Positions 18,474 through 32,159 of a stretch of 64,000 nt of DNA are shown piece by piece. The stretch covers positions 1 to 64,000 of the forward strand of contig JAYZAS010000001.1 of assembly GCA_036339585.1 (NCBI GenBank). Direction: 5' to 3'. A model generated the notes under the pieces. That model saw nothing but the letters and a program-made list of their open reading frames with translations. It was not told where the DNA came from and made no database searches. The position numbers and the translations under genes were made by a program. Each line of letters opens with the position of its first letter. Positions within the stretch are counted from its first letter, which is position 1. Origin of the DNA: Pseudomonadota bacterium. GTDB taxonomy: Bacteria; Pseudomonadota; Alphaproteobacteria; UBA8366.

Positions 18474-19979
18474 CTAATTCGATGTGCCTGCATGCACTGC
18501 AGCCTCACGACCGGCAATGCGTCCGAATGTGGCCCCAGCCATCAATCCTGTGCCAGATGCATACCCATGAAAATATAGTCCTCCGACCATTTCACCAGCT
18601 GCGTATAAACCCTTTATCACAGAACCGTCAGCCCTCTCGACCTCTGTTCGGCCAGAAACCTTAACACCACCAAAAGTAAATGTAACACCCGCAGTGACAG
18701 CATATGCATCAAATGGCGGTTCATCTATCGGATTAGCCCAGTTGCTTTTGTCAATGGAAAGCCCCTCGGTGCATCTGCCATCATGAACGTTTGGATCAAA
18801 AGGAATATCGGTACGGCATGCTGCGTTAAACTCTTCAATCGTTTTGACCATTCGAGCCGCGTCCATGCCTTCTATCTTACCTGCTAGTTCCTCAATAGAA
18901 TCAGCAGAATATTTGGTTAAGAACCGACAACGGTATTCTGAGCGGAGAAGATGCTGGACTTTGGCATCAAAAATTTGGAAGGCACACATTCCGGGCTGCT
19001 TCAGTATTTCACCACCGTAACGTGCATAAACATAAGAGTGAAAATCTTCTCCCTCATCACGAAAGCGTTCCCCCTTCGAATTAAGCACTACGGCAAAAGG
19101 CACGTTATGTTTCTGAAATTGGTCCCCAATAGTTATATCCCCGTAAGGGGGTGCGTTCAGATCCCACGCCACCGCGTGGGCACCTGAAAAATGACCGTAA
19201 GGCATAGCTCCTAGATCAAGTGCCATCTGAAGTCCCGCGCCGTTGTTGTAAGCTGTGCCTCGAACCTTTGCTAAATCCCATCCCGGCCCAAGATAACGAG
19301 CTCTCATTTCTGCGTTACTCTCGAAACTACCACAAGCTAAAATAACGGACTTCGCCGCAATATCATGTTCCTGACCCTGATAACGAACACGCACCCCATG
19401 GACACCCTTACCCTCGTCATGGAGAAGCCCTATTGCTGTGCACTCATATAAAACATCGACACCGATCTTACTCATTTGTTCGTGCCAATTTTTCACTAAT
19501 TGCTCGCCACCACCATTAATGCGTAAAGCTAACCCCCCCCAAAACCGAAATTTTCCATCCACCTTAAAAGCCTGGCGTCCCATAGCAGGTATTAGGTCTA
19601 CGCCATAAGTGGTCATCCACTTGGCTGTCTCGTAAGAATTTGTAACCAAAATTTCACACATATCACCGTCAGCGCGATACTGTGTCATGCGGAAGATATC
19701 GTCATAGTACTGTTCATGTGTGTACGTGCCAAAATCTATGTTTTCAAGATCTTCATCCGCAAGACTAGGACATAAATCCATTAAATCATCCACACCATTA
19801 TGGGAAAAACGAAAGGCACCACCGGTAAAGGCAGAATTTCCACCTCGCATGTCCTCAGGAGCAGTCTCAATCATCACCACACTGGAACCGTTTTCCACCG
19901 CCGACGCTGCTGACGCACAGGCAGCATTTCCCGCCCCCACCACTATAACGTCGACATTAGATCTAATAATATTAGCCAT
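18474..19979 (-). CDS. FAD-dependent fumarate reductase/tricarballylate dehydrogenase-type flavoprotein
   Basis: 501 residues of the FAD_binding_2 family. The Rossmann motif VDVIVVGAGNAACASAASA opens the protein, RGGNSAFTGGAFRF is the FAD-contacting loop, and the C-terminal GLYAAGEMVGGLYFHGYASGTGL plus GRIAGREAAVHA closes the flavin site. Relatives include fumarate reductase, tricarballylate dehydrogenase TcuA and 3-ketosteroid dehydrogenase, so a double-bond oxidation or reduction is likely. A run of eight G residues (19533-19540) lies in the coding sequence. AGGAGTG precedes ATG 19979. It is downstream of, and co-directional with, a 2-hydroxyacid dehydrogenase gene. Confidence 0.9.
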   Translation of the reverse strand: MANIIRSNVDVIVVGAGNAACASAASAVENGSSVVMIETAPEDMRGGNSAFTGGAFRFSHNGVDDLMDLCPSLADEDLENIDFGTYTHEQYYDDIFRMTQYRADGDMCEILVTNSYETAKWMTTYGVDLIPAMGRQAFKVDGKFRFWGGLALRINGGGEQLVKNWHEQMSKIGVDVLYECTAIGLLHDEGKGVHGVRVRYQGQEHDIAAKSVILACGSFESNAEMRARYLGPGWDLAKVRGTAYNNGAGLQMALDLGAMPYGHFSGAHAVAWDLNAPPYGDITIGDQFQKHNVPFAVVLNSKGERFRDEGEDFHSYVYARYGGEILKQPGMCAFQIFDAKVQHLLRSEYRCRFLTKYSADSIEELAGKIEGMDAARMVKTIEEFNAACRTDIPFDPNVHDGRCTEGLSIDKSNWANPIDEPPFDAYAVTAGVTFTFGGVKVSGRTEVERADGSVIKGLYAAGEMVGGLYFHGYASGTGLMAGATFGRIAGREAAVHAGTSN

Positions 19980-20066
19980 TTAAAACACTCCTGCGCTTTG
20001 ACGAAATTAGCATTAAATTACACATATTAAGAAACTTAAATAATCAATTTGGTCGAGATAAGCTCG

Positions 20067-21131
20067 TTAATCGCACGTTCGTTCCCCGAATAATGATTCG
20101 TACCGATCACAAAATTTATCCCATGCTTCAGGATTAATTAGGCGCTCAGGTTTCTTACCACTTAGTGTTTTTACAACTTGGTCAGCATTCCAAAACGCCA
20201 TATTTTCTCGTGACTCAAAAGTTACACCGGCAGTGTGATAAGTGGCGATAAGATTGTCAAACTGCAAGAGCGGATGATCTAATGGGGGCGGCTCTTGATC
20301 CCAAACGTCGAGACCAATACCGCGAATTTGCTTGTCCTCTAATGCTTCGATCATTGCGGCCTCATTAGCAATACCACCACGGGCGCAATTTACAAGAAAC
20401 GCAGAGGGTTGCATTAATGCTAATTCTGCACGACTTATCAGATCCTTTGTTTCAGAATTAAAAGGACAATTAATTGATATAAAATCGGCCTGTGCTAGTA
20501 ATTCCTCTAGCTCTGTTTCAATAGCCCCGTGGTCTGTAAAGTCAGCGTTTGTAATGTAAGGGTCGTAAGCAAGCACACGCATATTGAGGCCGTTCTTACA
20601 TATGCGCGCCACCCTGCTTCCGGTATTACCAAGTCCTACTATGCCAACGGTTTTGCCCTCCATGTTCCAGCCTTTGAATGTTTCACGCTCCACACCTCGC
20701 TCCCTACGAAGCGACTTGTCGGTTTGCGGAATGTTTTTGGAGAGAGACAGCATCATCCCAACGGCATGCTCAGCAACAGCCTCCGCATTAGCACCTGCTT
20801 GATTAACAACCAAAACACCGCGCTCGGTACACGCTGCCACATCAATAGGGTCGTAACCAGCGCCAGAAGATGACAGAACTAATAGTTTTTTACACCGATC
20901 GAGCAGCTCTCCATTTCCTTTGTATTGATCAAGTACCTCGTCACGAGCTGCCGTAATGCAGTAGGCATGACAACTCTCCATTATTTCCCAATTTTCATCC
21001 TGAGGAGTATCAAAATAAAGCTTATATGCCTGTACGGCATCTACCTTTGATAAAGCGTCATATACGTTCGGTGTCTTGTTGTCATTAAACCAGAAAACGC
21101 GACGTGCATCATCTCTTGATTTATTGGGCAT
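20067..21131 (-). CDS. D-isomer-specific 2-hydroxyacid dehydrogenase
   Basis: 354 residues of the NAD-dependent D-2-hydroxyacid dehydrogenase family (SerA/GhrA/LdhA-like). The NAD-binding loop VGIVGLGNTGSRVA, the substrate/catalytic Arg in NCARGGIANE, the Glu in GLDVWDQEPPP and the catalytic His in ATYHTAGVT are all seen. No ACT domain follows, so this is not full-length SerA. AGG-rich GGGAGG occurs just before ATG 21131. The gene is about 90 bases upstream of the flavoprotein gene in the same direction and could work with it on one hydroxyacid. Confidence 0.93.
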   Translation of the reverse strand: MPNKSRDDARRVFWFNDNKTPNVYDALSKVDAVQAYKLYFDTPQDENWEIMESCHAYCITAARDEVLDQYKGNGELLDRCKKLLVLSSSGAGYDPIDVAACTERGVLVVNQAGANAEAVAEHAVGMMLSLSKNIPQTDKSLRRERGVERETFKGWNMEGKTVGIVGLGNTGSRVARICKNGLNMRVLAYDPYITNADFTDHGAIETELEELLAQADFISINCPFNSETKDLISRAELALMQPSAFLVNCARGGIANEAAMIEALEDKQIRGIGLDVWDQEPPPLDHPLLQFDNLIATYHTAGVTFESRENMAFWNADQVVKTLSGKKPERLINPEAWDKFCDRYESLFGERTCD

Positions 21132-21234
21132 AAAACCTCCCTTTAGTTCGATGCCTTTAGTTACTGCGCACAGTTAAACATATCTATAGTTTGACTTGAC
21201 GGAATTCGCAATTCACGCGATGTGTTTGCGTACT

Positions 21235-21663
21235 ATGACAAAAACAACTGAAAATCGAAATAAAAACATTACAAATTATAATCAAGTCCTAGGCTACGAA
21301 GTGCTGGAGTGGATTGATGGACATGCTTTGTTAGCAACTCCTATTCAGAAAAAGCACCGAAATAGGGGAAGATCTATACATGGCGGCGTAATAGCATCTC
21401 TTGTAAACGTTGCTGGCAAAATGGCAGGAAATTGGACATCCAACGGAGAGCGCAAAACAAAGACAATCAACCTCAATATAAACTTCATTTCGGGGACAAG
21501 CGCCGACTTGGTACATGTAAGAGGCGTCCGTTCCCATGCAACTAAAGGCACGTTATTTTCTAACGTAGAGATTTTCCTCCCGGATACCGGCACCGTGATC
21601 GCCAGCGGCCAAGGTGTGTTTAAGCTTCTACGCTCAGAAGTAACACCTATCCGTACCACTTAA
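21235..21663 (+). CDS. PaaI-like hotdog-fold thioesterase, copy 1
   Basis: About 142 residues of the hotdog PaaI/YbgC-like acyl-CoA thioesterase fold. HRNRGRSIHGGVIASLVNVAGK carries the central helix with the HGG signature; TKTINLNINFISGTSADLVHVRG and the GTVIASGQGVFKLL strands complete the fold. The start at ATG 21235 is chosen because it aligns exactly, length included, with the next gene, its paralogue; an upstream TTG is also open. It lacks an evident ribosome binding site. Expected role: hydrolysis of an acyl- or aryl-CoA made in the neighbouring CoA pathway. Confidence 0.85.
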   Translation: MTKTTENRNKNITNYNQVLGYEVLEWIDGHALLATPIQKKHRNRGRSIHGGVIASLVNVAGKMAGNWTSNGERKTKTINLNINFISGTSADLVHVRGVRSHATKGTLFSNVEIFLPDTGTVIASGQGVFKLLRSEVTPIRTT

Positions 21664-21683
21664 TAAAGAAAGACATCAGACGA

Positions 21684-22121
21684 ATGTTGACCTCTGTATA
21701 TGAGCGCGAAGACATTAAAGGTACGTTTCACGAAGTGCTCGACTATAAAGTGATTGAGTGGCGAGATGGCCATGTCTTGATGGAACTTGAGGTAAAACCA
21801 GAGCATCGTGATCACGAAAATTTTATTCACGATGGGATTTTATCATCACTCATAGATATCGCAGGCTTTCTTGGTGGTGACTGGTCTCCAAATGGCCCCG
21901 GACGTTCAGTGACGATCAATCTGAATATTAGCTTCATTAATGATAGTAAAGCCGAAACGATCATTGCTATAGGGAAGCGCACCCAAAACATTAAAAAACT
22001 ACAATTTACTAAAGTAGATGTTCTAGAAAAAGGGACAAAAAAATTGCTTGCCTCTGGCCAGTGCACCTATAAGATCCTCTGCCCTAACACGAAAGATAGC
22101 CCTGGAGTGACCGGACGCTAA
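21684..22121 (+). CDS. PaaI-like hotdog-fold thioesterase, copy 2
   Basis: 145 residues, a clear but diverged paralogue of the preceding gene: both show V-L-x-Y-x-V-x-E-W-x-D-G-H at the same position and the T-I-N-L-N-I-(N/S)-F-I strand. The helix motif reads FIHDGILSSLIDIAG, with HDG in place of the HGG of copy 1, so the active-site residue (Asp or Gly in this family) differs between the two. They may form a heteromeric hotdog enzyme or act on different CoA esters. AGAC-A-G-A spacing gives only a weak ribosome binding site. Convergent with the MmgE/PrpD gene. Confidence 0.85.
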   Translation: MLTSVYEREDIKGTFHEVLDYKVIEWRDGHVLMELEVKPEHRDHENFIHDGILSSLIDIAGFLGGDWSPNGPGRSVTINLNISFINDSKAETIIAIGKRTQNIKKLQFTKVDVLEKGTKKLLASGQCTYKILCPNTKDSPGVTGR

Positions 22122-22132
22122 ATGAAGCTTTC

Positions 22133-23557
22133 TTATGATAAGCTAATTACTGAATCAAATTCATCAAGGTCAGCTTGGTCTTCAATGCTTAAAATTATGG
22201 ACCGAATTTCCTCAGCCCGACCAGTTGAAACCGCACTAGTAGCATTTTTCATAAATTTATCGAGGACCTGTTCCTCGCTGATAGGGTGTTCATCCGTACC
22301 AAGATTATGCTCTTGAGCGTGCTTCAGCTCGCGTCCATCTTTTGTTCGAACAACTACTGTACCCGAGAAATAGTCGGGATATAGGGTATCAGTCGTAGTG
22401 TTGTAATGAATTTTATCGCAGAGACTAAGTATCTCGGGATCACCAAACGCGTCTGGCTCTATTTCAGCCAACGTAAACTGCCCCCGACATATTGCAGCTG
22501 CTGTCGCATAATGCACACTAAATTGTGCCTGGTAAGAACTCTGGGGGCGACGCTTGGCCTCCTCAGGAATACAAACTGCCGTTTGATTGGGGTGTGCTAG
22601 TACAATTATTGACTCAATTTGGTCAGGCTTCAATTCATACTCTTGCCGAAGCTTTATACCAGTTTCTATAAACGCGTGTAACCAATGACATGCTGGATAT
22701 GGTTTGTAAGCAACATTTGACAATTCCCATACATTTCCGAGCCCATTTGTCACAACATCTAAGTCAATCTCCTGCCCATGAGCATAGCACCCGTAAAGAC
22801 CTTGCTCATATTCATAGATAGTTTCCGGCCCGGTGAAACCGTGGCGCGCCCACATAGCGGCATTAATGCCGTTAACGGCCGCAATTCCAGTATGCATACG
22901 CTTTGCCCAAGCACCATTCGCATGGTAGGCACGAGTGGGCCCACCGAAGCTCGCTACAAGACCCTGAGCATGAGTTAGCTGACTAACAGTAAGATCGCAA
23001 AGTTTGCCAGCAACCATCGCACAGCCATACGCGCCTATTATTCCAGTCGTATGAAAACCATTTGCATGAATACCCCCAGCAGCCGCCTTTGCGAGGCGTG
23101 ATCCAGTCTCAACTCCTATCAAATACGCTTCCAATGCCTCGTACCCAGTCTTTGCATTCGCCATCGCCAAAATAAATGCAGTGGGCACAGTACTCCCTGA
23201 GATATGAATAACACCGGTTGTATGAGTATCATCAAAATCAAGCCCGTGCACTAATACCCCATTTACCATCACCGCATCACGAAGCGGCAAACGATGTGCA
23301 AGCCCAACCACAGGAAAGTCTCCTTCTCCACCAAGGTCTAGCCCAGCGCTTGCTGCTTTGTGACCGTAATCTTTCGTGGATGACGCAAGCGCGATACCAA
23401 AACTATCTAAAACATGGAGTTTTGCTAAATTAATGATCTCCTTTGGCACGTTCGTAAGGGAGAACTTTTCAACAAATTCTGCAACCTGTTGAGAAACTGT
23501 TACGGATTTTTCAATTTTAGATTGCTGAAACTCAGAGGGTGTTACGACGTTGCTCAT
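22133..23557 (-). CDS. MmgE/PrpD family protein
   Basis: 474 residues of the MmgE/PrpD family (2-methylcitrate dehydratase, cis-aconitate decarboxylase, iminodisuccinate epimerase). Family motifs: LHVLDSFGIALASS, VNGVLVHGLDFDDTH (about 98-112), GSTVPTAFILA, HANGFHTTGIIGAYG (about 163-177) with conserved His, LVASFGGPTRAYHANGAW, and YKPYPACHWLH. No prpB/prpC are nearby, so a methylcitrate cycle role is not supported; it may dehydrate or isomerise another tricarboxylate. It is 130 bases upstream of the selenoprotein candidate gene, same strand, so they could be cotranscribed with the latter first. Confidence 0.93.
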   Translation of the reverse strand: MSNVVTPSEFQQSKIEKSVTVSQQVAEFVEKFSLTNVPKEIINLAKLHVLDSFGIALASSTKDYGHKAASAGLDLGGEGDFPVVGLAHRLPLRDAVMVNGVLVHGLDFDDTHTTGVIHISGSTVPTAFILAMANAKTGYEALEAYLIGVETGSRLAKAAAGGIHANGFHTTGIIGAYGCAMVAGKLCDLTVSQLTHAQGLVASFGGPTRAYHANGAWAKRMHTGIAAVNGINAAMWARHGFTGPETIYEYEQGLYGCYAHGQEIDLDVVTNGLGNVWELSNVAYKPYPACHWLHAFIETGIKLRQEYELKPDQIESIIVLAHPNQTAVCIPEEAKRRPQSSYQAQFSVHYATAAAICRGQFTLAEIEPDAFGDPEILSLCDKIHYNTTTDTLYPDYFSGTVVVRTKDGRELKHAQEHNLGTDEHPISEEQVLDKFMKNATSAVSTGRAEEIRSIILSIEDQADLDEFDSVISLS

Positions 23558-23687: not shown

Positions 23688-24491
23688 CTACTGTGCTGCT
23701 TGCATGGTTTCGTTATCCTCACTCATCGGTTCATCATCCCAAATTTTTTTCGGCATTGGTAACCCGTTGAATACATCTTCATCAATAGGTTTTGAGGGAG
23801 GATTACCTCTATTTTCTAGATACATCTTAAGCTGTCGAATATGTTGCCCAGGGTGCCAAGTTACCCGTTCAAGAAGTTCCCTCAATGTAACGTCACCCCA
23901 ATAAGCATTAGCAGGCTCGGTGCCGTCTCCTGAATAAACCGAATGCCAGCCTTTAAAGCGCTTCAGCACAGCACGACCGTAAACTGCGAGATCAGCACCA
24001 GTATTAATGTCTTTAGGGTGATCTATATCCGCGATGGTCGTGTGATATTCCTCCGCTTCTCCATCCATAAGTTCGCAAAATGCCTCGACGATTCGGTAGA
24101 TGTGGTAACAAAGTTGCCGAATTTTACGATCCCGGTTAGGGAGCTTAGGCTCGAGGTCTTCGTCCTTCATCTCTTCCATGTAAGATATGGCTGCCAACAA
24201 AATAATATCCATCTTGGCTGCCAACTCATCTACACTAAACTCTTGAATGTCTCCAAGAGGAATGCCAACAAAGTCACATACGTCTTTTAATTTTTGCCCC
24301 ATAACATAGCTCATACCGCGCGAAATAGCAGGAATACGCTTAATACCAATGCGTTGGAGCCTAGCCATTCCTTCTGAATTGCCATGAACATTTACCGATT
24401 CGTAGACGACCCCACGGGCCGTAAGAAACTCTTTGAGTCTCAGGCAACTAGTTCATCCTGGCTGCCAATAGACGTATAGTGGTTCTGTCAT
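23688..24491 (-). CDS. Probable selenoprotein: glutaredoxin-like UxxC domain fused to DinB-like domain
   Basis: A 267-residue protein if the TGA at 24453-24455 is read as selenocysteine. ATG 24491 follows a perfect AAGGAGG nine bases upstream. Residues 1-12 (MTEPLYVYWQPG) lead into U13-T-S-C16, aligning with the CxxC of glutaredoxins; then CLRLKEFLTARGVVYESVNV, the cis-Pro motif RIPAISRG and KLKDVCDFVGIPL complete the thioredoxin fold. From about residue 95 a DinB-like four-helix domain follows, with candidate metal His in the KGWHSVYSG and WHPGQHIRQLKMYL segments. DinB relatives include thiol-dependent transferases (mycothiol-dependent isomerase, bacillithiol transferase), suggesting a glutathione-linked reaction. 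Without recoding, translation would stop at codon 13. A TGC/TGT-to-TGA error or decay is the alternative. Confidence 0.8.
24406..24441 (-). promoter_or_regulatory. Candidate bacterial SECIS hairpins downstream of UGA
   Basis: Two adjacent stem-loops follow the in-frame UGA on the minus strand. The first, 24425-24441, has a 7-bp stem (one G-U) closing an AAA loop that begins 18 nt after UGA. The second, 24406-24422, has a 7-bp stem (one G-U) closing a GUG loop that begins 37 nt after UGA. Bacterial SECIS elements lie in about this window and usually carry a G, often G-U, in the loop, which favours the second, though its distance is at the upper limit. Both are inside the coding sequence, as expected for bacteria. 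Confidence 0.5.
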
Positions 24492-24514
24492 AACTGTGAG
24501 CCTCCTTACCTTAA

Positions 24515-24558: not shown

Positions 24559-24859
24559 CGAGAAGGCAAGTATCTGTAGGCCATTAGCTCTCGCATCCTA
24601 GAAACAGTTACTGCACTATGCCAACTCAAATTTTACAAAATAATTTACCCGACTTAAATGTTACTTTAGTAAATGATAGAGAGTGTACTTCTCTGGACAC
24701 CATTGACTTTGAAACCTTAAAATAGTGTGAGTGTGTAGTTGAAAACTATTGGCATACACTGAAGGAACGTCCTGACAAACCCTTGAGCAGATCAAACGGA
24801 CTGACAAAACTAGCCGAATACACAAAAACATCTCTTTTCTTAATTTGGGAGGATCGAAA
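24559..24859. other. Divergent intergenic region
   Basis: About 300 bases between the tandem repeat and the plus-strand flavoprotein gene. A 36-codon frame begins at ATG 24619 and ends in TAG at 24724-24726; it has no ribosome binding site and no recognisable similarity. No RNA gene was recognised. Confidence 0.4.
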
Positions 24860-26413
24860 ATGGCATCAACAAATATTCCACCACAACATGTGAATAGCTT
24901 TGATGAGGAATTCGACGTCGTAGTAGTTGGCTTCGGCTACGCGGGCGGTGCTGCTGCCATTGCCGCATGCGACGGGGGGGCAAAAACACTTTTGATTGAA
25001 AAGATGCCAATGCCAGGCGGCATTTCGATTTGTGCTGGGGGTGGGGTGAGACTGGCCCTAGAACGAGATCCAGTTGTTGAACATCTATACGAAACAAATG
25101 ACGGCACAACATCACGAAATATTATTGAAGCATTCGTAGATGAAATGATGCTACTAGATGACTACTTGGAAGACCTCTGTAAAGTGAATAATGCAAGCAC
25201 CATTACTATAGAAGGACGAGGAGCGAACTATCCTTTTACAGGCTTTGATCAAATGAGATTTGTAGAAGTAGATGACATTCCGGGTGTTGACGTTCTTAAA
25301 GTTTACCCACATGCTCGATCCCATCGTAACGGGACTAAACTTTTCAAAGTTGTTCATGATAATGTGAATTCACGTGGCATTGAAGTTCGTCTGAACACCC
25401 CAGCTCTAAGATTAATCACTCAGAATACCAATGAGGTAAGGGGTATATGGATCGACGGGCCAGACGGCCGCAAAGCCATAAAGTGTAACAAGGGTGTCAT
25501 TCTTGCCTGTGGCGGGCTAGAGGCGGCACCGGACATGCAACGTCAGTATTGGCAAATAAATCCGGTCCTCTCCGCCGCCCATCGAGGAAATACTGGAGAT
25601 GGAATAAAGATGGCAACAGATGTGGGGGCAGATCTATGGCACATGTGGCATTACCACGGCACCTACGGTTTTCGACATCCTGACCCAAGTTATCCCTTTG
25701 GAATTCGCATGAAACGCCATCCCGACTGGGTTCCAACAAAGAAAGAAGCTGAAATTCCTATGGCATGGATTCTAGCTGATAAAAAAGGCAATCGTTTTAT
25801 GAATGAGTATCAGCCCTACACTCAGGATACGGGTCACAGGGCCCTTGATGTATATGATACTGGCAGAATGGAATTTCCTTATGTCCCCTGCTTTATGATT
25901 GCAGATGAGGATGGTCGCGAGCGTTATCGTTTCGGCGCTACAATATACAATGACAGCACAATAGAGCCGTATGAGTGGAGTGAAGACAACCTAAAAGAAG
26001 TACAAAACGGAATTCTTAAAAAGGCCAACACAATCGAAGAATTAGCGGGGTTTATTGGCTGTGATCCCGTAAATTTGAAAAAAACTATTGAGGAATATAA
26101 TTCAGCCACCGATTGCGGCTTGGAGGATAAATTTGGCCGCCCACCCAAAACACGTCTCAAGATCGAGCGCCCCCCATTTTACCTTGGAGAAATTTGGCCG
26201 GTTGTTTCCAATACTCAAGGTGGTCCGCGACACAACGAGAAGTATCAAATTTGCAACGCTTTTAACGAGCCAATACCCCGTCTTTATGCAGCAGGCGAAT
26301 GCGGTGGTATCTGGGGTTTCTTGTACCTGGCAGGCGGTAATCTAACCGAGTGCTTCGTCGGAGGACGTGTTTCCGGCAGAGAGGCTAGCGCTTTAAAGGA
26401 TTGGAATACTTGA
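24860..26413 (+). CDS. FAD-dependent fumarate reductase-type flavoprotein, second copy
   Basis: 517 residues of the same FAD_binding_2 family as the gene at 18.5 kb. FDVVVVGFGYAGGAAAIAAC is the Rossmann loop, IEKMPMPGGISICAGGGVR the next FAD contact, and YAAGECGGIWGFLYLAGGN plus GGRVSGREAS the C-terminal flavin site. The capping domain differs enough from the 18.5-kb protein to suggest another substrate, for example an unsaturated or ketosteroid-like ring compound. ATG 24860 is preferred over an in-frame TTG at 24845 because GGGAGG lies eight bases before it. A run of seven G falls in codons for residues near 40. Confidence 0.9.
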   Translation: MASTNIPPQHVNSFDEEFDVVVVGFGYAGGAAAIAACDGGAKTLLIEKMPMPGGISICAGGGVRLALERDPVVEHLYETNDGTTSRNIIEAFVDEMMLLDDYLEDLCKVNNASTITIEGRGANYPFTGFDQMRFVEVDDIPGVDVLKVYPHARSHRNGTKLFKVVHDNVNSRGIEVRLNTPALRLITQNTNEVRGIWIDGPDGRKAIKCNKGVILACGGLEAAPDMQRQYWQINPVLSAAHRGNTGDGIKMATDVGADLWHMWHYHGTYGFRHPDPSYPFGIRMKRHPDWVPTKKEAEIPMAWILADKKGNRFMNEYQPYTQDTGHRALDVYDTGRMEFPYVPCFMIADEDGRERYRFGATIYNDSTIEPYEWSEDNLKEVQNGILKKANTIEELAGFIGCDPVNLKKTIEEYNSATDCGLEDKFGRPPKTRLKIERPPFYLGEIWPVVSNTQGGPRHNEKYQICNAFNEPIPRLYAAGECGGIWGFLYLAGGNLTECFVGGRVSGREASALKDWNT

Positions 26414-26529
26414 TCATACCCAATTCAAATACGGTAGCTCTGGCTTGTGGGCTTGAGGAAAACTTAGAGGATGGGATCTGCCTTTTCCGTTTGTAAATAG
26501 ACCTACTTGGTGTTGCTATCACCTAGTCT

Positions 26530-27828
26530 CTAAATTCGGAAACGGTCCTGCAGGTTTTTAAGCGCCACCATTGGTGCCAAGAACCACGGGTTGCCCGAAT
26601 ATATCGGATGTGTAGGGTGCTCACTGTCAAATATGGTATTTCCATTTTTTTTTCCCAAAACCTTGAGGCCTGTTTTGTGCCCCAAATAATTGGCGTTCAC
26701 TACACCTGAGCCGCAAAAACCAGCAACATAAAAAATATCTTCATTTTGTGCTATGTGAAGCATGTGGTCTAACGTGTAGGCGATAAAGCCACCCCAACTA
26801 TGGGTTATTTTTGTTCCTTCAAGCGACGGAAAAATTCGTAGCAACCGCTTATAAAGCATTCGCCCGCTCCTACGACGGTCTCTGATTTCTGCTGCTCCAG
26901 CTCTGCCACCAAACAAAATACGATCATGATCAGGTGACCCTCTAAAATAGTAATGTAACCGACAAGTGTCCCCCAATTGGCGATTACCAGGTACTAAATC
27001 AGCCATGATGTTGGAGCCTAATGGCTCTGTTGCGATTATTTGGCTCTGCATTGGTAGAACACGACGACGCAACCAAGGCGACTCATAGCCGGTATACCCG
27101 TTTGTAGCGATTACTATTTGCCGAGCTCGTAGAGTAGAGGATCTGCACAAAAGTTTAAAGCCGTTCGCTTCCCTTGTTATTTCTTCGACTGGAGCACGAC
27201 CGACTACGGGGACACCCTCGGCACAAACTAGCTCCAACAAGCCCTGATGTAGCCTACCAGGATGAAGGTTTCCATCTTCTGCCAAAAAACGACCGCCGAA
27301 ATATGCCGTTGACCCTATAAACTTATGTTGCGCGTCAGCAGTAACCATTTCACCCTCAACCCCAAGGTGTTTTGATTGCAGGTCAAGATCATAGCCAAGT
27401 GTCTCATAATCATTTTTCCTGTGACAACCAATGAACCTACCAACCGGGTGTAGGTCACAGTCAATATTCTCTTTTAAAATAAAATTCTTTAGCCAGTCAC
27501 GCCCTTCCCGCGCTTCACGATAAAACTGCAGTGCTGTTTCCAAGCCATGCATTTTAATTAATTTTGTAAGTGAGTGTCGGAGCGTGGCTCCAATTGCTCC
27601 TCCGTTACGAGAGCTCGCTCCCTCGCCCGGACGACCAGCCTCTAACACGACAACACTTCTCCCACCACGAGCAATCGTGAGCGCTGCTGACAGACCGGCA
27701 TAGCCGGCTCCAACAACAGCAACATCGATTTTTTGGGGTAGGTTACTTATGTTGGCTTCAGGCCTTGGTGCAGCCAACCACCAGTACGGTGTAAATGCAA
27801 CGTCGGAAGAGAAAATGTCACGTTTCAT
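26530..27828 (-). CDS. FAD-dependent DAO-family amine/amino-acid oxidoreductase
   Basis: About 432 residues of the DAO family, close to gamma-glutamylputrescine oxidase PuuB and similar. The Rossmann motif VAVVGAGYAGLSAALTIA is at about 34-51, EAGRPGEGASSRNGGAIG contains the SxRNGG flavin contact of PuuB-like oxidases, IVIATNGYTG is the second motif and a GFCGSGV segment near the C-terminus completes the FAD site. Oxidative removal of an amine or methylamine is expected. ATG 27828 has AGGAGG at good spacing, better than the ATG two codons upstream. Divergent from an amidase gene only about 60 bases away. Confidence 0.9.
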   Translation of the reverse strand: MKRDIFSSDVAFTPYWWLAAPRPEANISNLPQKIDVAVVGAGYAGLSAALTIARGGRSVVVLEAGRPGEGASSRNGGAIGATLRHSLTKLIKMHGLETALQFYREAREGRDWLKNFILKENIDCDLHPVGRFIGCHRKNDYETLGYDLDLQSKHLGVEGEMVTADAQHKFIGSTAYFGGRFLAEDGNLHPGRLHQGLLELVCAEGVPVVGRAPVEEITREANGFKLLCRSSTLRARQIVIATNGYTGYESPWLRRRVLPMQSQIIATEPLGSNIMADLVPGNRQLGDTCRLHYYFRGSPDHDRILFGGRAGAAEIRDRRRSGRMLYKRLLRIFPSLEGTKITHSWGGFIAYTLDHMLHIAQNEDIFYVAGFCGSGVVNANYLGHKTGLKVLGKKNGNTIFDSEHPTHPIYSGNPWFLAPMVALKNLQDRFRI

Positions 27829-27886
27829 GTTCATTACCTCCTGTTGCCGTTCTCAATCGCGTGCTACAAATTAACCCCAATGCAGC

Positions 27887-29203
27887 ATGAATGGAAGAAA
27901 AGGTATTTCAGTGGATAAATATCCTAATAAATTATCATTGAGCGAAGCCGCTTCGGCTATTGCGGTAGGAAGTCTTTCATCAGAAGAACTAGTGCAATCT
28001 TGCATAGATCGAATAGAGGAGCGAGAGAATGCGGTTCAAGCATGGGCATATTTCGACCCTGAACTTGCGCTAGATCAAGCGAGGAGGCGAGATAACGCAA
28101 AGCCTGATGGACCACTACACGGTGTGCCGATCGGGGTGAAGGATATTATCGACACCATGGATATGCCCACCGAATATAACTCACCTATTTACAAAAACCA
28201 CAGACCATCTATTGATGCAGCATGTGTCGCCAGACTGCGTCAAGCCGGCGCAATAATTATGGGTAAAACCGTGACTACGGAGTTCGCCTCGAGCTACCCA
28301 GGACCAACCCGTAATCCTATCAATACAGCCCATACCCCCGGCGGTTCCTCCCAAGGATCTGCTGCTGCAGTGGCTGACTTTATGGTGCAAGGTGCATTAG
28401 GCACACAAACCGGCGGTTCGGTAATTCGCCCCAATGCCTATTGTGGCACAGTCGGTTACAAGCCACCTTACAATACTTACGATAAAGCCGGGGTCAAACC
28501 TCTCGCTCCCATTATGGACACAGTCGGCTTGATGGTTCGTAGCATTTTGGATGTCGGAATACTCTCCAGCGCTCTTTCTGGATTGAAACCAGCAAAGTTA
28601 ATAACCGATAATGCGCCGAATTTGCTTTTACATCGAACAGGCCAATGGGATGCTGCAGAAGACTATATCAAGGTACTGATTGAAGATTGTGCCAAAATTT
28701 TTTCTTCTGCTGGCGCACAGGTTCGTGATCACGCTTTTGTTCAACCCTATGATAACCTACAAGCCGCTCAGAGAGTAGTTATGGCAGTAGAAGCCTGTCG
28801 GGAGTTCAAGGAAGAATGGATGAACCATCAAGACTTGTTGAGCAAACCATTTCAGGATTTGATGCTACGCGGTTTCGAGACAACTCCTGAGGAGCGAGGG
28901 GAAGCTGAGGGTTTACTCAAATATGGACGAGGGAACTTGTCTGAAATATTTACAGAAGGTGAAATTTTACTTACTCCAGGTGCGCCTGGCGAGGCACCGA
29001 AAGGTATAGGATCCACAGGTGATTCAATTTTTAACAGGGCTTGGACTTTTTTAGGCGTAGCATGTCTCTATTTGCCGGTTACCAATGGTCCGAATGGTCT
29101 GCCAATTGGGATACAATTGATAGACCCTCACAACAACGAAGCTCGTTTACTTTCCGCTGGGGTTTGGTGTGCTAAGAAACTTGGGCTAGATGCAATTATT
29201 TGA
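27887..29203 (+). CDS. Amidase signature enzyme, copy 1
   Basis: 438 residues with the amidase-signature Ser-cisSer-Lys triad: Lys in PIGVKDIIDTMD (about 82-93), the cis-Ser in TPGGSSQGSAAAV and the nucleophile in TQTGGSVIRPNAYCG. It is the close paralogue of the amidase at 34.9-36.2 kb, sharing the TQTGGSVIRP version of the motif. Substrate may be a small amide, carbamoyl or N-acyl compound. It is divergent from the DAO oxidase, so an amine generated from an amide could pass to that enzyme. Its stop lies three bases before the start of the FolM-like gene. Confidence 0.92.
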   Translation: MNGRKGISVDKYPNKLSLSEAASAIAVGSLSSEELVQSCIDRIEERENAVQAWAYFDPELALDQARRRDNAKPDGPLHGVPIGVKDIIDTMDMPTEYNSPIYKNHRPSIDAACVARLRQAGAIIMGKTVTTEFASSYPGPTRNPINTAHTPGGSSQGSAAAVADFMVQGALGTQTGGSVIRPNAYCGTVGYKPPYNTYDKAGVKPLAPIMDTVGLMVRSILDVGILSSALSGLKPAKLITDNAPNLLLHRTGQWDAAEDYIKVLIEDCAKIFSSAGAQVRDHAFVQPYDNLQAAQRVVMAVEACREFKEEWMNHQDLLSKPFQDLMLRGFETTPEERGEAEGLLKYGRGNLSEIFTEGEILLTPGAPGEAPKGIGSTGDSIFNRAWTFLGVACLYLPVTNGPNGLPIGIQLIDPHNNEARLLSAGVWCAKKLGLDAII

Positions 29204-29205
29204 TT

Positions 29206-29976
29206 ATGACAAAAACCCTGCCCATGGCCAAAAATATGCTCATAACGGGAGCTGCACAGCGTATCGGTGCCGCCCTCGCAGGGGAAATGGCCGCCGAGGG
29301 GTGGCACGTGTGCATTCATTACAACACATCGCAAGCTAAAGCAGAGAAGGTAGCAGATGCTATCATTTCAAAAGGCGGAAAAGCCAGTCTATATCATGCC
29401 GATCTCGCCACAACAGAAGGACCGGAGGACTTGATTGCTCGATGTCACGATGAGATTGGGCCACTAAGTTGCCTTATCAATAATGCATCTATTTTCGAAT
29501 ATGATGATCTTGATAGTTTAAACGGAGAGATGCTTGATCTACATCACGCAGTAAATGCGCGCGCACCGCTTCTTTTATCACAAGCCTTTTCAAAAAGAAT
29601 TCCAAAAAAGGCAAAGGGCAACATAGTAAACATTCTCGATAACAAGGTCATGGCACCAAATCCGGATTACATGTCTTATACCATCAGCAAATTTGCCCTG
29701 AAGGCTGCGACTGAAATACTAGCAATGGCCATGGCACCTCAGATAAGAGTGAATGGTATCGCGCCTGGCATCACACTTTTGTCCGGCAAACAGTCAGAAT
29801 CCCGGTTCAACAAAGCTCACAAAACTAACCCGCTAAAACAAGGCTGTACCCCCGGACAAATTGCCGCTGCTTTAAAGCTTATACTTGACTGCCCTTCGAT
29901 GACCGGCGAAATCATTGTGCTAGATGGAGGTCAAAGATTACAAAGCCTACCACGCGACATCGCCTTTCTTACATAA
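29206..29976 (+). CDS. folM: SDR of pteridine reductase/dihydromonapterin reductase (FolM) type
   Basis: About 256 residues. TGAAQRIGAALAGEMAAEGW with a following IHYNTSQAKAE (NADP-type, RH-like region) and LINNASIFEYDDLDSL are characteristic of FolM/PTR1-like reductases; Y-T-I-S-K gives the YxxxK pair. These NADPH enzymes reduce dihydro- to tetrahydropterins or folates. The next gene is a FolB/FolX-family aldolase or epimerase, which supports a pterin role. ATG 29206 follows the amidase stop at once; ATG 29224 is an alternative that trims six residues. Confidence 0.83.
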   Translation: MTKTLPMAKNMLITGAAQRIGAALAGEMAAEGWHVCIHYNTSQAKAEKVADAIISKGGKASLYHADLATTEGPEDLIARCHDEIGPLSCLINNASIFEYDDLDSLNGEMLDLHHAVNARAPLLLSQAFSKRIPKKAKGNIVNILDNKVMAPNPDYMSYTISKFALKAATEILAMAMAPQIRVNGIAPGITLLSGKQSESRFNKAHKTNPLKQGCTPGQIAAALKLILDCPSMTGEIIVLDGGQRLQSLPRDIAFLT

Positions 29977-29995
29977 TTTACGAAAGTATTTTGTT

Positions 29996-30358
29996 ATGCC
30001 AATTTCCGCCTCGAAGTTTTTTCTCAAGGACTATGCTGTACCCGTATCCATAGGCATACACGACTTTGAAAAGGCTCGCCGCCAGACTGTTGTAATTAAT
30101 ATCGAGATGTATCTTGAAAATACCGACGTTGATCGCAACGATAGTATCGAAAACACTATAAATTATGACTTTCTAAGATCAGAAATAGAAATTCTCGTAA
30201 AAGATCGCCATTTTAATCTTCAAGAAACACTTTGTAATGAAATAGTAAATATATGCAAAGGAAAAAATTTATTCAGTAAAATTATTGTTTCTACAAGTAA
30301 ACCAGACATTTATAAAGACTGTAAAAGCGTTGGTTTTGAAATGATATTTGAAAAATAG
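29996..30358 (+). CDS. folB: FolB/FolX-family dihydroneopterin aldolase or epimerase
   Basis: 120 residues of the T-fold FolB family: FFLKDYAVPVSIGIHDFEKARRQTVVINI at the start with the pterin-loop Tyr replaced, an INYDFLRSEIEIL helix, NLQETLCNEIVNICKG with the conserved Glu, and KIIVSTSKPDIYKDCKSVG-type strand at the end. Family members either release glycolaldehyde from dihydroneopterin or epimerise dihydroneopterin triphosphate. It is 20 bases after the FolM-like gene, so the pair probably makes tetrahydromonapterin or a folate precursor. The A/T-rich codons near the 3' end differ from those of the neighbours. Confidence 0.85.
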   Translation: MPISASKFFLKDYAVPVSIGIHDFEKARRQTVVINIEMYLENTDVDRNDSIENTINYDFLRSEIEILVKDRHFNLQETLCNEIVNICKGKNLFSKIIVSTSKPDIYKDCKSVGFEMIFEK

Positions 30359-30716
30359 GAAATATATTATACTTTATGCATAATTACCCGATTAATATTA
30401 GCGTATAGAAAAACCACGACGATTGAGTAGAAAACATTTTTTAGATATGGGTCGTCTTGCATCGCCTGACTAATCTATGCCGATCACTATTTTAGGTTCT
30501 TAAAAGTAGTATTAGCGAAGCCAAAACCAGTAAGCTGTTGCATCATATATTCCCCAAAAAGGCTCCTTATATGGTCATAAAAATTGAGCTATCCGCGTTA
30601 AGTATTACGAGCCTCCTATCAGCTATTTAAATAAACATCTTTAATAGTCGATTATCTATCCTGACAGATAGTCAAGCCGTGCTAACATAATGAAAACTTT
30701 TACCGGGGATATGATA
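30359..30716. other. Intergenic region with possible dyad
   Basis: About 360 bases without a convincing frame. A short dyad, CTATC-six bases-GATAG, near 30655-30672 stands about 50 bases upstream of the first sulfatase gene and may be an operator. No terminator was clear after folB. Confidence 0.4.
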
Positions 30717-32159
30717 ATGGCTAAAAATGTTTTGTTTATAATGTCAGATGAACATCAACAAAAAGCAAGTGGATGCTATGGGCATCCGTTTGTGAAAACA
30801 CCCACCATTGATAAGCTCGCTGCAAGCGGAACACGCTTTACAAATGCGTATACCAATTCGCCAATTTGCGTTCCAGCCCGCGCTAGCTTCGCTACGGGTC
30901 AGTATGTACACGATATTGGTTATTGGGATAATGCCCATGCATACGAGGGACGCGTTGAAGGATGGGGGCATGCCCTGCAGAAGGCAGGAATGCATTGCCT
31001 ATCCATCGGGAAACTGCACTATCGCAGTGAAGAAGACCCCACAGGCTTCAACGAGCAAATCGTGCCATTACACATTGTCGATGGTAAAGGAAGTATCGGT
31101 GGTAGTGTGAAACAGCCTCTGGCCCCTCCGATTACGAAAAGTAAACTTGCAACTAACATTGGTCCAGGCGACTCCGGCTACATTCAATATGATAAAACGA
31201 TAATGGAAAAAACTGTAGAATGGCTAGAGACTGAAGCCACACGCCTTACAGATAAACCATGGGCTCTATTTTGTTCCTTTGTTTGTCCACATTTTCCCCT
31301 AATTGCGCCGCAAGATTTCTATGACCTTTACCCCCACGACATGCTTCCTCATCCGAAAGGAAACGATCCAGATTATCCCCTTCATCCTTGGATTGATAAA
31401 TTTCAGAAGGTGCAATGCCACGACGATTTTTTCACTGAAGAGAGCCGTAAAGTAGCCATGGCCTCTTACTACGGTCTGTGCTCCTATCTAGATTCCAATA
31501 TCAGCAAAGTGCTCATAGCACTTGAAAAGGCGGGACTTCGTGACGACACTTTAATTGTGTACACAGCAGATCATGGCGAAAACCTTGCAACGCGGCGTCT
31601 TTGGGGTAAGTCAAACATGTATGAGGAGGCTGCTGCTATTCCAATGATACTGTCGGGGCCCGGCATACCATCCGGCAAAGTCGTAAACACACCAGTTACA
31701 TTAGCTGATGGATCTGCAACAATTCTCGACGCGTTGGGACTTTCCAACATCTCAGTAGGTGAAACACGTTCGTTATGCAAGATAGCTAATGAGGGTGATG
31801 ATTTAGAACGTGTTGCATTCAGCGAATATCACGCAACGGGGGCCGACACTGCCGCATTTATGATTCGAAAAGGTAACTTCAAATACATTCATTATGTAGA
31901 TTACGAATCAGAACTTTTTGATCAGGTTAATGATCCGGAAGAGGAGGAAAATGTGGTTAATAACCCTGATTTTTCAGATATTTTAGCGGATCTTCAGGAA
32001 GAGCTTTATGCGAGGGTTGACCCACATGCTGTGAATGAGGCCGCACAGAAATCACAAGCTGCGCTGGTAAATGCAGAGGGAGGGCGCGAGGCCGTCCTTG
32101 CCAAAGGTTCGTTTCAAGGAACACCAGCGCCAGGAGAAAAAGCAGAGTATATCCAATAA
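30717..32159 (+). CDS. Cys-type sulfatase, copy 1
   Basis: 480 residues of the alkaline-phosphatase-fold sulfatase family. The formylglycine site is C51-V-P-A-R, preceded by metal ligands Asp10 and Glu/His in SDEHQQ; late motifs TADHGENLATRRLW and KSNMYEEAAAIPMI supply further metal and sulfate contacts. The Cys must be oxidised to formylglycine by a sulfatase-modifying enzyme not present here. There is no signal peptide, so the enzyme is cytoplasmic and acts on an imported sulfate ester, choline sulfatase-like. ATG 30717 is chosen by comparison with copy 2; ATGs just upstream are possible. Confidence 0.9.
   Translation: MAKNVLFIMSDEHQQKASGCYGHPFVKTPTIDKLAASGTRFTNAYTNSPICVPARASFATGQYVHDIGYWDNAHAYEGRVEGWGHALQKAGMHCLSIGKLHYRSEEDPTGFNEQIVPLHIVDGKGSIGGSVKQPLAPPITKSKLATNIGPGDSGYIQYDKTIMEKTVEWLETEATRLTDKPWALFCSFVCPHFPLIAPQDFYDLYPHDMLPHPKGNDPDYPLHPWIDKFQKVQCHDDFFTEESRKVAMASYYGLCSYLDSNISKVLIALEKAGLRDDTLIVYTADHGENLATRRLWGKSNMYEEAAAIPMILSGPGIPSGKVVNTPVTLADGSATILDALGLSNISVGETRSLCKIANEGDDLERVAFSEYHATGADTAAFMIRKGNFKYIHYVDYESELFDQVNDPEEEENVVNNPDFSDILADLQEELYARVDPHAVNEAAQKSQAALVNAEGGREAVLAKGSFQGTPAPGEKAEYIQ

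Follow-up and report, generated by a model that had tools for sequence, protein, structure and literature searches.

The 64,000-nucleotide stretch of DNA from a marine alphaproteobacterium analyzed in this study (hereafter, the window) carries a gene for a 267-residue fusion of a glutaredoxin with a DinB/YfiT domain (Grx-DinB), in which an in-frame UGA at codon 13 is almost certainly decoded as selenocysteine (Sec). The joint reading, namely that the product is a selenoprotein, that it has the Grx-DinB make-up, and that it performs thiol-redox or thiol-transfer chemistry in general, is given a probability of about 0.72.

An In-Frame TGA in a Glutaredoxin-DinB Gene

The gene and its parts, all located on the reverse strand of the window, are as follows:

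23688..24491 (-), selenoprotein gene encoding the 267-residue glutaredoxin-DinB fusion, stop codon included; one TGA in an otherwise open frame, with 52 homologues aligned over the full length
24501..24507 (-), Shine-Dalgarno-like AAGGAGG, 9 bases upstream of the ATG; read from the sequence and kept in L046 and L047, both 90%-identical relatives
24453..24455 (-), in-frame TGA at codon 13, predicted selenocysteine of a U-T-S-C motif; based on homologue codons and the genomic sel machinery
24425..24441 (-), candidate bacterial SECIS hairpin GAGACUC-AAA-GAGUUUC, following the UGA after an 11-nt spacer
24258..24488 (-), glutaredoxin/NrdH-like domain, approximately residues 2-78; Pfam PF00462 and structure matches to 3zit and 7c10
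23775..24248 (-), DinB/YfiT (S-transferase-like) domain, approximately residues 82-239; structure matches to 6iz2, 3di5, and 8f5v, with His130, His213, and His217 invariant

The TGA (24455-24453) lies in the context W-Q-P-G-TGA-T-S-C, at the place where the first cysteine of a glutaredoxin CxxC motif is expected. The preliminary description of this DNA had claimed a 267-residue frame with a TGA at codon 13 (PG-U-TSC) as its sole interruption and with AAGGAGG located nine bases upstream of the ATG; re-reading of the sequence bore out both statements. Its further prediction, that an automatic caller would truncate the protein to 226 residues starting at 24368, agrees with the standard ORF list, in which only the 226-aa remnant at 23688-24368 appears. 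By starting at this position, an automatic caller loses the redox motif together with half of the thioredoxin fold.

Domain Architecture, Active Sites, and Gene Neighborhood

The N-terminal part of the protein was recognized by the Pfam model Glutaredoxin (PF00462; residues 7-56, 31.5 bits at a cut-off of 22.9), and the model DinB_2 covered residues 103-221 with a score slightly below its cut-off (23.9 vs. 24.8). An AlphaFold model based on an alignment of 28 members reached a pLDDT of 90.6 and a pTM of 0.88. Residues 2-78 of this model gave thioredoxin-like/glutaredoxin matches, namely to 3zit (Z 12.0, rmsd 1.8, 77 aligned) and 7c10 (Z 10.7, rmsd 1.7, 75 aligned). The best values for residues 82-239 were obtained with the DinB/YfiT structure 6iz2 (Z 15.1, rmsd 2.6, 144 aligned), accompanied by the zinc-containing mycothiol S-transferase 8f5v (Z 13.2, rmsd 3.2, 140 aligned) and the mycothiol-dependent maleylpyruvate isomerase 2nsg (Z 12.9, rmsd 3.4, 161 aligned), values to be read in light of the fact that helical bundles may reach approximately Z 13 through their arrangement alone. 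The predicted DinB fold is clear despite the Pfam score below the cut-off, the top structure matches being mostly DinB/YfiT proteins and Pfam pointing to the same fold. The proposed fusion of a glutaredoxin to a DinB-like domain was thus confirmed, for the first domain by a PF00462 score above the cut-off and for the second by structure. Furthermore, His130, His213, and His217 are invariant across the 28 aligned members and correspond in order to the metal-binding H67, H160, and H164 of Bacillus subtilis BstA (PMC5815605), the last two also in their HxxxH spacing.

Catabolic genes are abundant around the Grx-DinB gene in the window (18474-23557 on the reverse strand and 24845-32159), comprising FAD_binding_2 and DAO oxidoreductases, a D-2-hydroxyacid dehydrogenase, MmgE/PrpD, an amidase, an SDR, and a sulfatase. 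The Grx-DinB gene of close relatives precedes an MmgE/PrpD gene and has genes for 2-hydroxyacid dehydrogenase and FAD oxidoreductases nearby. Cys forms encoded on plasmids have amidase genes, a CoA transferase gene, and genes for tripartite tricarboxylate transporter proteins in their vicinity. A comparison of 42 regions yielded neighbors common to close relatives only, and no partner that is constant across the family. Judged by these neighbors, a role of Grx-DinB in catabolism or detoxification is plausible.

Such variation of the gene neighborhood between lineages would also suit another reading, according to which the protein is a real selenoprotein with a DinB domain that is not a thiol transferase, but rather a substrate or metal binder or a hydrolase feeding a Sec glutaredoxin that acts alone, the delivered substrate being a peroxide, a disulfide, a metal, or a metalloid. 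DinB/YfiT proteins are very diverse, several of the solved members are labelled putative hydrolases, and metal binding has been suggested for the glutaredoxin-like UXX-star selenoproteins (PMC13188914). However, all eight Bacillus subtilis members of the S-transferase-like (STL) superfamily that were tested are metal-dependent thiol transferases (PMC5815605), the same three histidines are invariant here, and the fusion with a glutaredoxin points to thiol chemistry, so that a DinB domain merely supplying its partner is considered rather unlikely. Preference is given to thiol chemistry in both domains. Since both glutathione synthesis genes, gshA and gshB, are present in the window's genome, glutathione is the likely thiol, and together with the DinB fold and the histidine triad these genes are consistent with a DinB domain that performs glutathione-linked thiol chemistry, for which the odds are put at roughly even.

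Selenocysteine Machinery and Its Co-Occurrence with the TGA Form

The genome to which the window belongs (2.79 Mb, 25 contigs, listed as 100% complete) encodes the whole machinery that the proposed Sec insertion presupposes, all four components scoring above curated cut-offs: selA, selB, and a canonical tRNA-Sec (anticodon TCA) adjoin one another on contig 10, and selD resides on contig 18. The selD sequence (L057, G000:C18:8500-11500) lies at the C-terminal end of a long open frame, the N-terminal part of which resembles an FAD-dependent NADH dehydrogenase. The active-site residue of this SelD is Cys rather than Sec (MRCGGCGAKVG). Downstream of selA, selB, and tRNA-Sec on contig 10, a gene for a selenoprotein of the UGSC family was found (L053:11315-11800), which exceeded the cut-off of the NCBI (seleno)protein model NF041046 (136 vs. 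125 bits) and features a TGA at codon 102 within the U-G-S-C motif. In addition to Grx-DinB, this gene brings the number of selenoproteins in the window's genome to at least two.

Across genomes, with the window's own genome left out of the tally, selB was detected above its cut-off in 17 out of 18 Sec-bearing genomes compared to 3 out of 13 genomes with the Cys form only (Fisher p = 6e-5; p = 0.003 with one vote per genus). The sole Sec-bearing genome without selB, G011, is 77% complete.

UGA-recoding tRNA variants are known in nature, and the corresponding column holds Cys in the remaining homologues; accordingly, it might be supposed that a suppressor tRNA, rather than the Sec system, mediates readthrough of the codon as Cys or another amino acid. 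This is highly improbable, given that the canonical tRNA-Sec, SelA, SelB, and SelD are all encoded in the genome and that the TGA form tracks selB across genomes. An altered genetic code was likewise rejected, because TGA also functions as a regular stop codon, terminating 8 out of 43 long ORFs of the window, and the Sec machinery is complete.

Homologues with TGA or Cysteine at Codon 13

Homologues were collected from 385 genomes belonging to the class as well as from 39 near relatives, genome contigs, and plasmids, resulting in a set of 52 distinct full-length proteins. Codon 13 is TGA in 33 and TGC or TGT in 19 of them, so that each homologue has either TGA or Cys in this column, as anticipated for a selenoprotein with Cys counterparts. 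Stops scattered elsewhere in the homologues, which would have been a sign of a pseudogene, are absent (0 out of 52 with another internal stop). The TGA-containing homologues span 19 genus codes, including the window's own genus, a recurrence well beyond what chance would produce. The window protein is 75-90% identical to its closest relatives, and its identity to the other aligned members amounts to only 34-44%; the TGA is accordingly old. Mapped onto a maximum-likelihood tree, the Sec label requires three changes, compared to a mean of 15.6 for shuffled labels. A single origin of Sec followed by two reversions to Cys would fit this unrooted tree.

The short region upstream of the TGA shows the signature of a translated sequence. 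Codons 1-12 differ from those of the 90%-identical species by two synonymous and no non-synonymous substitutions and from those of the 75% relatives by seven synonymous and two non-synonymous ones, and constraint was also detected on the stretch between the TGA and the internal ATG. A reading of the gene as a pseudogene, or of the TGA as either misread or a genuine stop, with the 226-residue piece from 24368 as the working protein, matches the exact output of standard ORF calling, but is refuted for practical purposes, since the TGA recurs in independent assemblies and many genera without any further stop, the codons upstream of it are constrained, and the piece would begin within the thioredoxin fold. 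A sequencing error at the TGA in particular is practically excluded, as closely related species, assembled separately, have TGA at this place too.

Genome G306 encodes the Grx-DinB fusion in both forms, with Sec and with Cys, on different contigs (L056 and L028). One relative's gene (L061:1501-2295) contains unread bases in the assembly, appearing as X in the translation, and this copy is accordingly of lower quality. Among 398 genomes drawn from the phylum, one match apart from that in the window's own genome was obtained, and no relative was found in the viral contigs searched. Taking the phylum sample together with the plasmid matches, the family appears to belong mainly to Alphaproteobacteria, some members being from Burkholderiales.

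Overall, the Sec residue that had been claimed for codon 13 is supported by the homologue column, the sel genes, and the absence of further stops.

Candidate SECIS Element

The hairpin following the UGA in the window's gene is more stable than expected from synonymous recodings (z -3.1, p 0.014). Beyond this gene, the statistical signal is weak: the comparison of hairpin stability between the Sec group as a whole and the Cys group yielded only p = 0.08. The comparison of a 45-nt stretch with dinucleotide shuffles gave z = -0.94. RNAalifold, applied to 18 Sec sequences, returned neither a common hairpin nor a SECIS consensus or covariation. By eye, the register of the stem shifts slightly between groups. 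At several positions 3' of the UGA, Sec forms vary less than Cys forms, which would fit a constraint at the RNA level; shared descent could also account for this uniformity.

Proposed Mechanism

In the mechanism proposed here, SelB and tRNA-Sec would insert Sec at UGA codon 13, probably with the help of the hairpin just 3' of it. The product would consist of an N-terminal glutaredoxin with a U-T-S-C active site and a DinB/YfiT domain with a putative three-histidine metal site. The frame and its conservation, the full Sec machinery, the exchange between Sec and Cys, both folds, and the histidine triad are computational results; the chemistry that follows is inferred. In the DinB domain, the metal may activate glutathione for S-transfer to, or isomerization of, a catabolic intermediate or a toxic electrophile. 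In the glutaredoxin domain, Sec would be the attacking residue, acting on either the product or the enzyme by reduction or deglutathionylation, and Cys16 would resolve the intermediate.

Direct cooperation of the Sec site with the DinB metal site is conceivable, although we rate it at somewhat below even odds. The more specific scheme of one enzyme, with the DinB site forming or rearranging a glutathione conjugate and the Sec site then releasing it by reduction, is more tentative still. To our knowledge, such a combination of conjugate formation and Sec-dependent release has no counterpart among described selenoproteins.

Comparison with Known Protein Families and Significance

Sec-containing glutaredoxins with a UxxC motif have been reported from marine metagenomes since 2005 (Sargasso Sea, PMC1088965; GOS 2008, PMC2398784), and a review of 2026 lists Sec-glutaredoxin among 119 prokaryotic selenoprotein families and subfamilies (PMC13188914). 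These proteins share with Grx-DinB the glutaredoxin fold (PF00462), Sec as the first residue of UxxC, and an occurrence in marine bacteria. They are, however, entered as COG0695/PF00462 with no DinB domain mentioned, whereas Grx-DinB comprises two domains. Older marine reads designated 'Grx' or 'Grx-like' may in some cases be fragments of the Grx-DinB family.

The second group to be considered is the DinB/YfiT STL superfamily, represented by the bacillithiol transferases BstA-H, the mycothiol S-transferase (8f5v), and the mycothiol-dependent maleylpyruvate isomerase (2nsf). Grx-DinB shares its helical-bundle fold with these proteins, as well as the three-histidine site (H...HxxxH); it differs in being fused to a Sec- or Cys-containing glutaredoxin and in residing in a host with glutathione synthesis genes. 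The UXX-star proteins, including HUGP/GUXX-star, also possess a glutaredoxin-like domain in which Sec opens the active-site motif, and one of them is a fusion as well. In contrast to these, Grx-DinB retains the second Cys (UxxC), has DinB as the partner domain, and scores far below the cut-offs of the respective models: 25.5 bits vs. 66 for Uxx-star (NF041212), the nearest Sec-related NCBIfam model, and 19.4 bits vs. 325 for the HUGP/GUXX-star fusion (NF045501). No NCBIfam model was passed by the Grx-DinB protein.

A further group is formed by the Cys-containing Grx-DinB proteins, which possess both domains, have the same length, and are homologous throughout (30-40% identical). They differ in that TGC or TGT replaces TGA and in that selB is absent from most of their genomes. 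Their annotation reads 'DinB family protein' or 'glutaredoxin domain-containing protein'.

No DinB entry exists among the 119 families and subfamilies of the 2026 catalogue (PMC13188914), and a full-text literature search combining selenoprotein or selenocysteine with glutaredoxin and DinB, which covered few subscription papers, returned nothing relevant. The preliminary description had regarded the protein as undescribed; as far as could be found, this holds for the Grx-DinB fusion, but not for the Sec glutaredoxin itself. Because the latter is known and the DinB fusion was found neither in the catalogue nor in NCBIfam or the papers, the novelty is placed in the two-domain enzyme: what is new is a Sec-glutaredoxin within a Grx-DinB enzyme that is widespread in Alphaproteobacteria.

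As Sec and Cys forms of the same enzyme coexist, even within genome G306, the worth of Sec in this enzyme can be tested directly. If the interpretation given here is true, one more family would join the 119 entries of the 2026 catalogue of prokaryotic selenoproteins. Selenium would also be tied to the DinB thiol-transferase fold, a connection for which no earlier case was found, and a common alphaproteobacterial selenoprotein would be shown to be reduced by standard ORF calling to a fragment starting within the thioredoxin fold.
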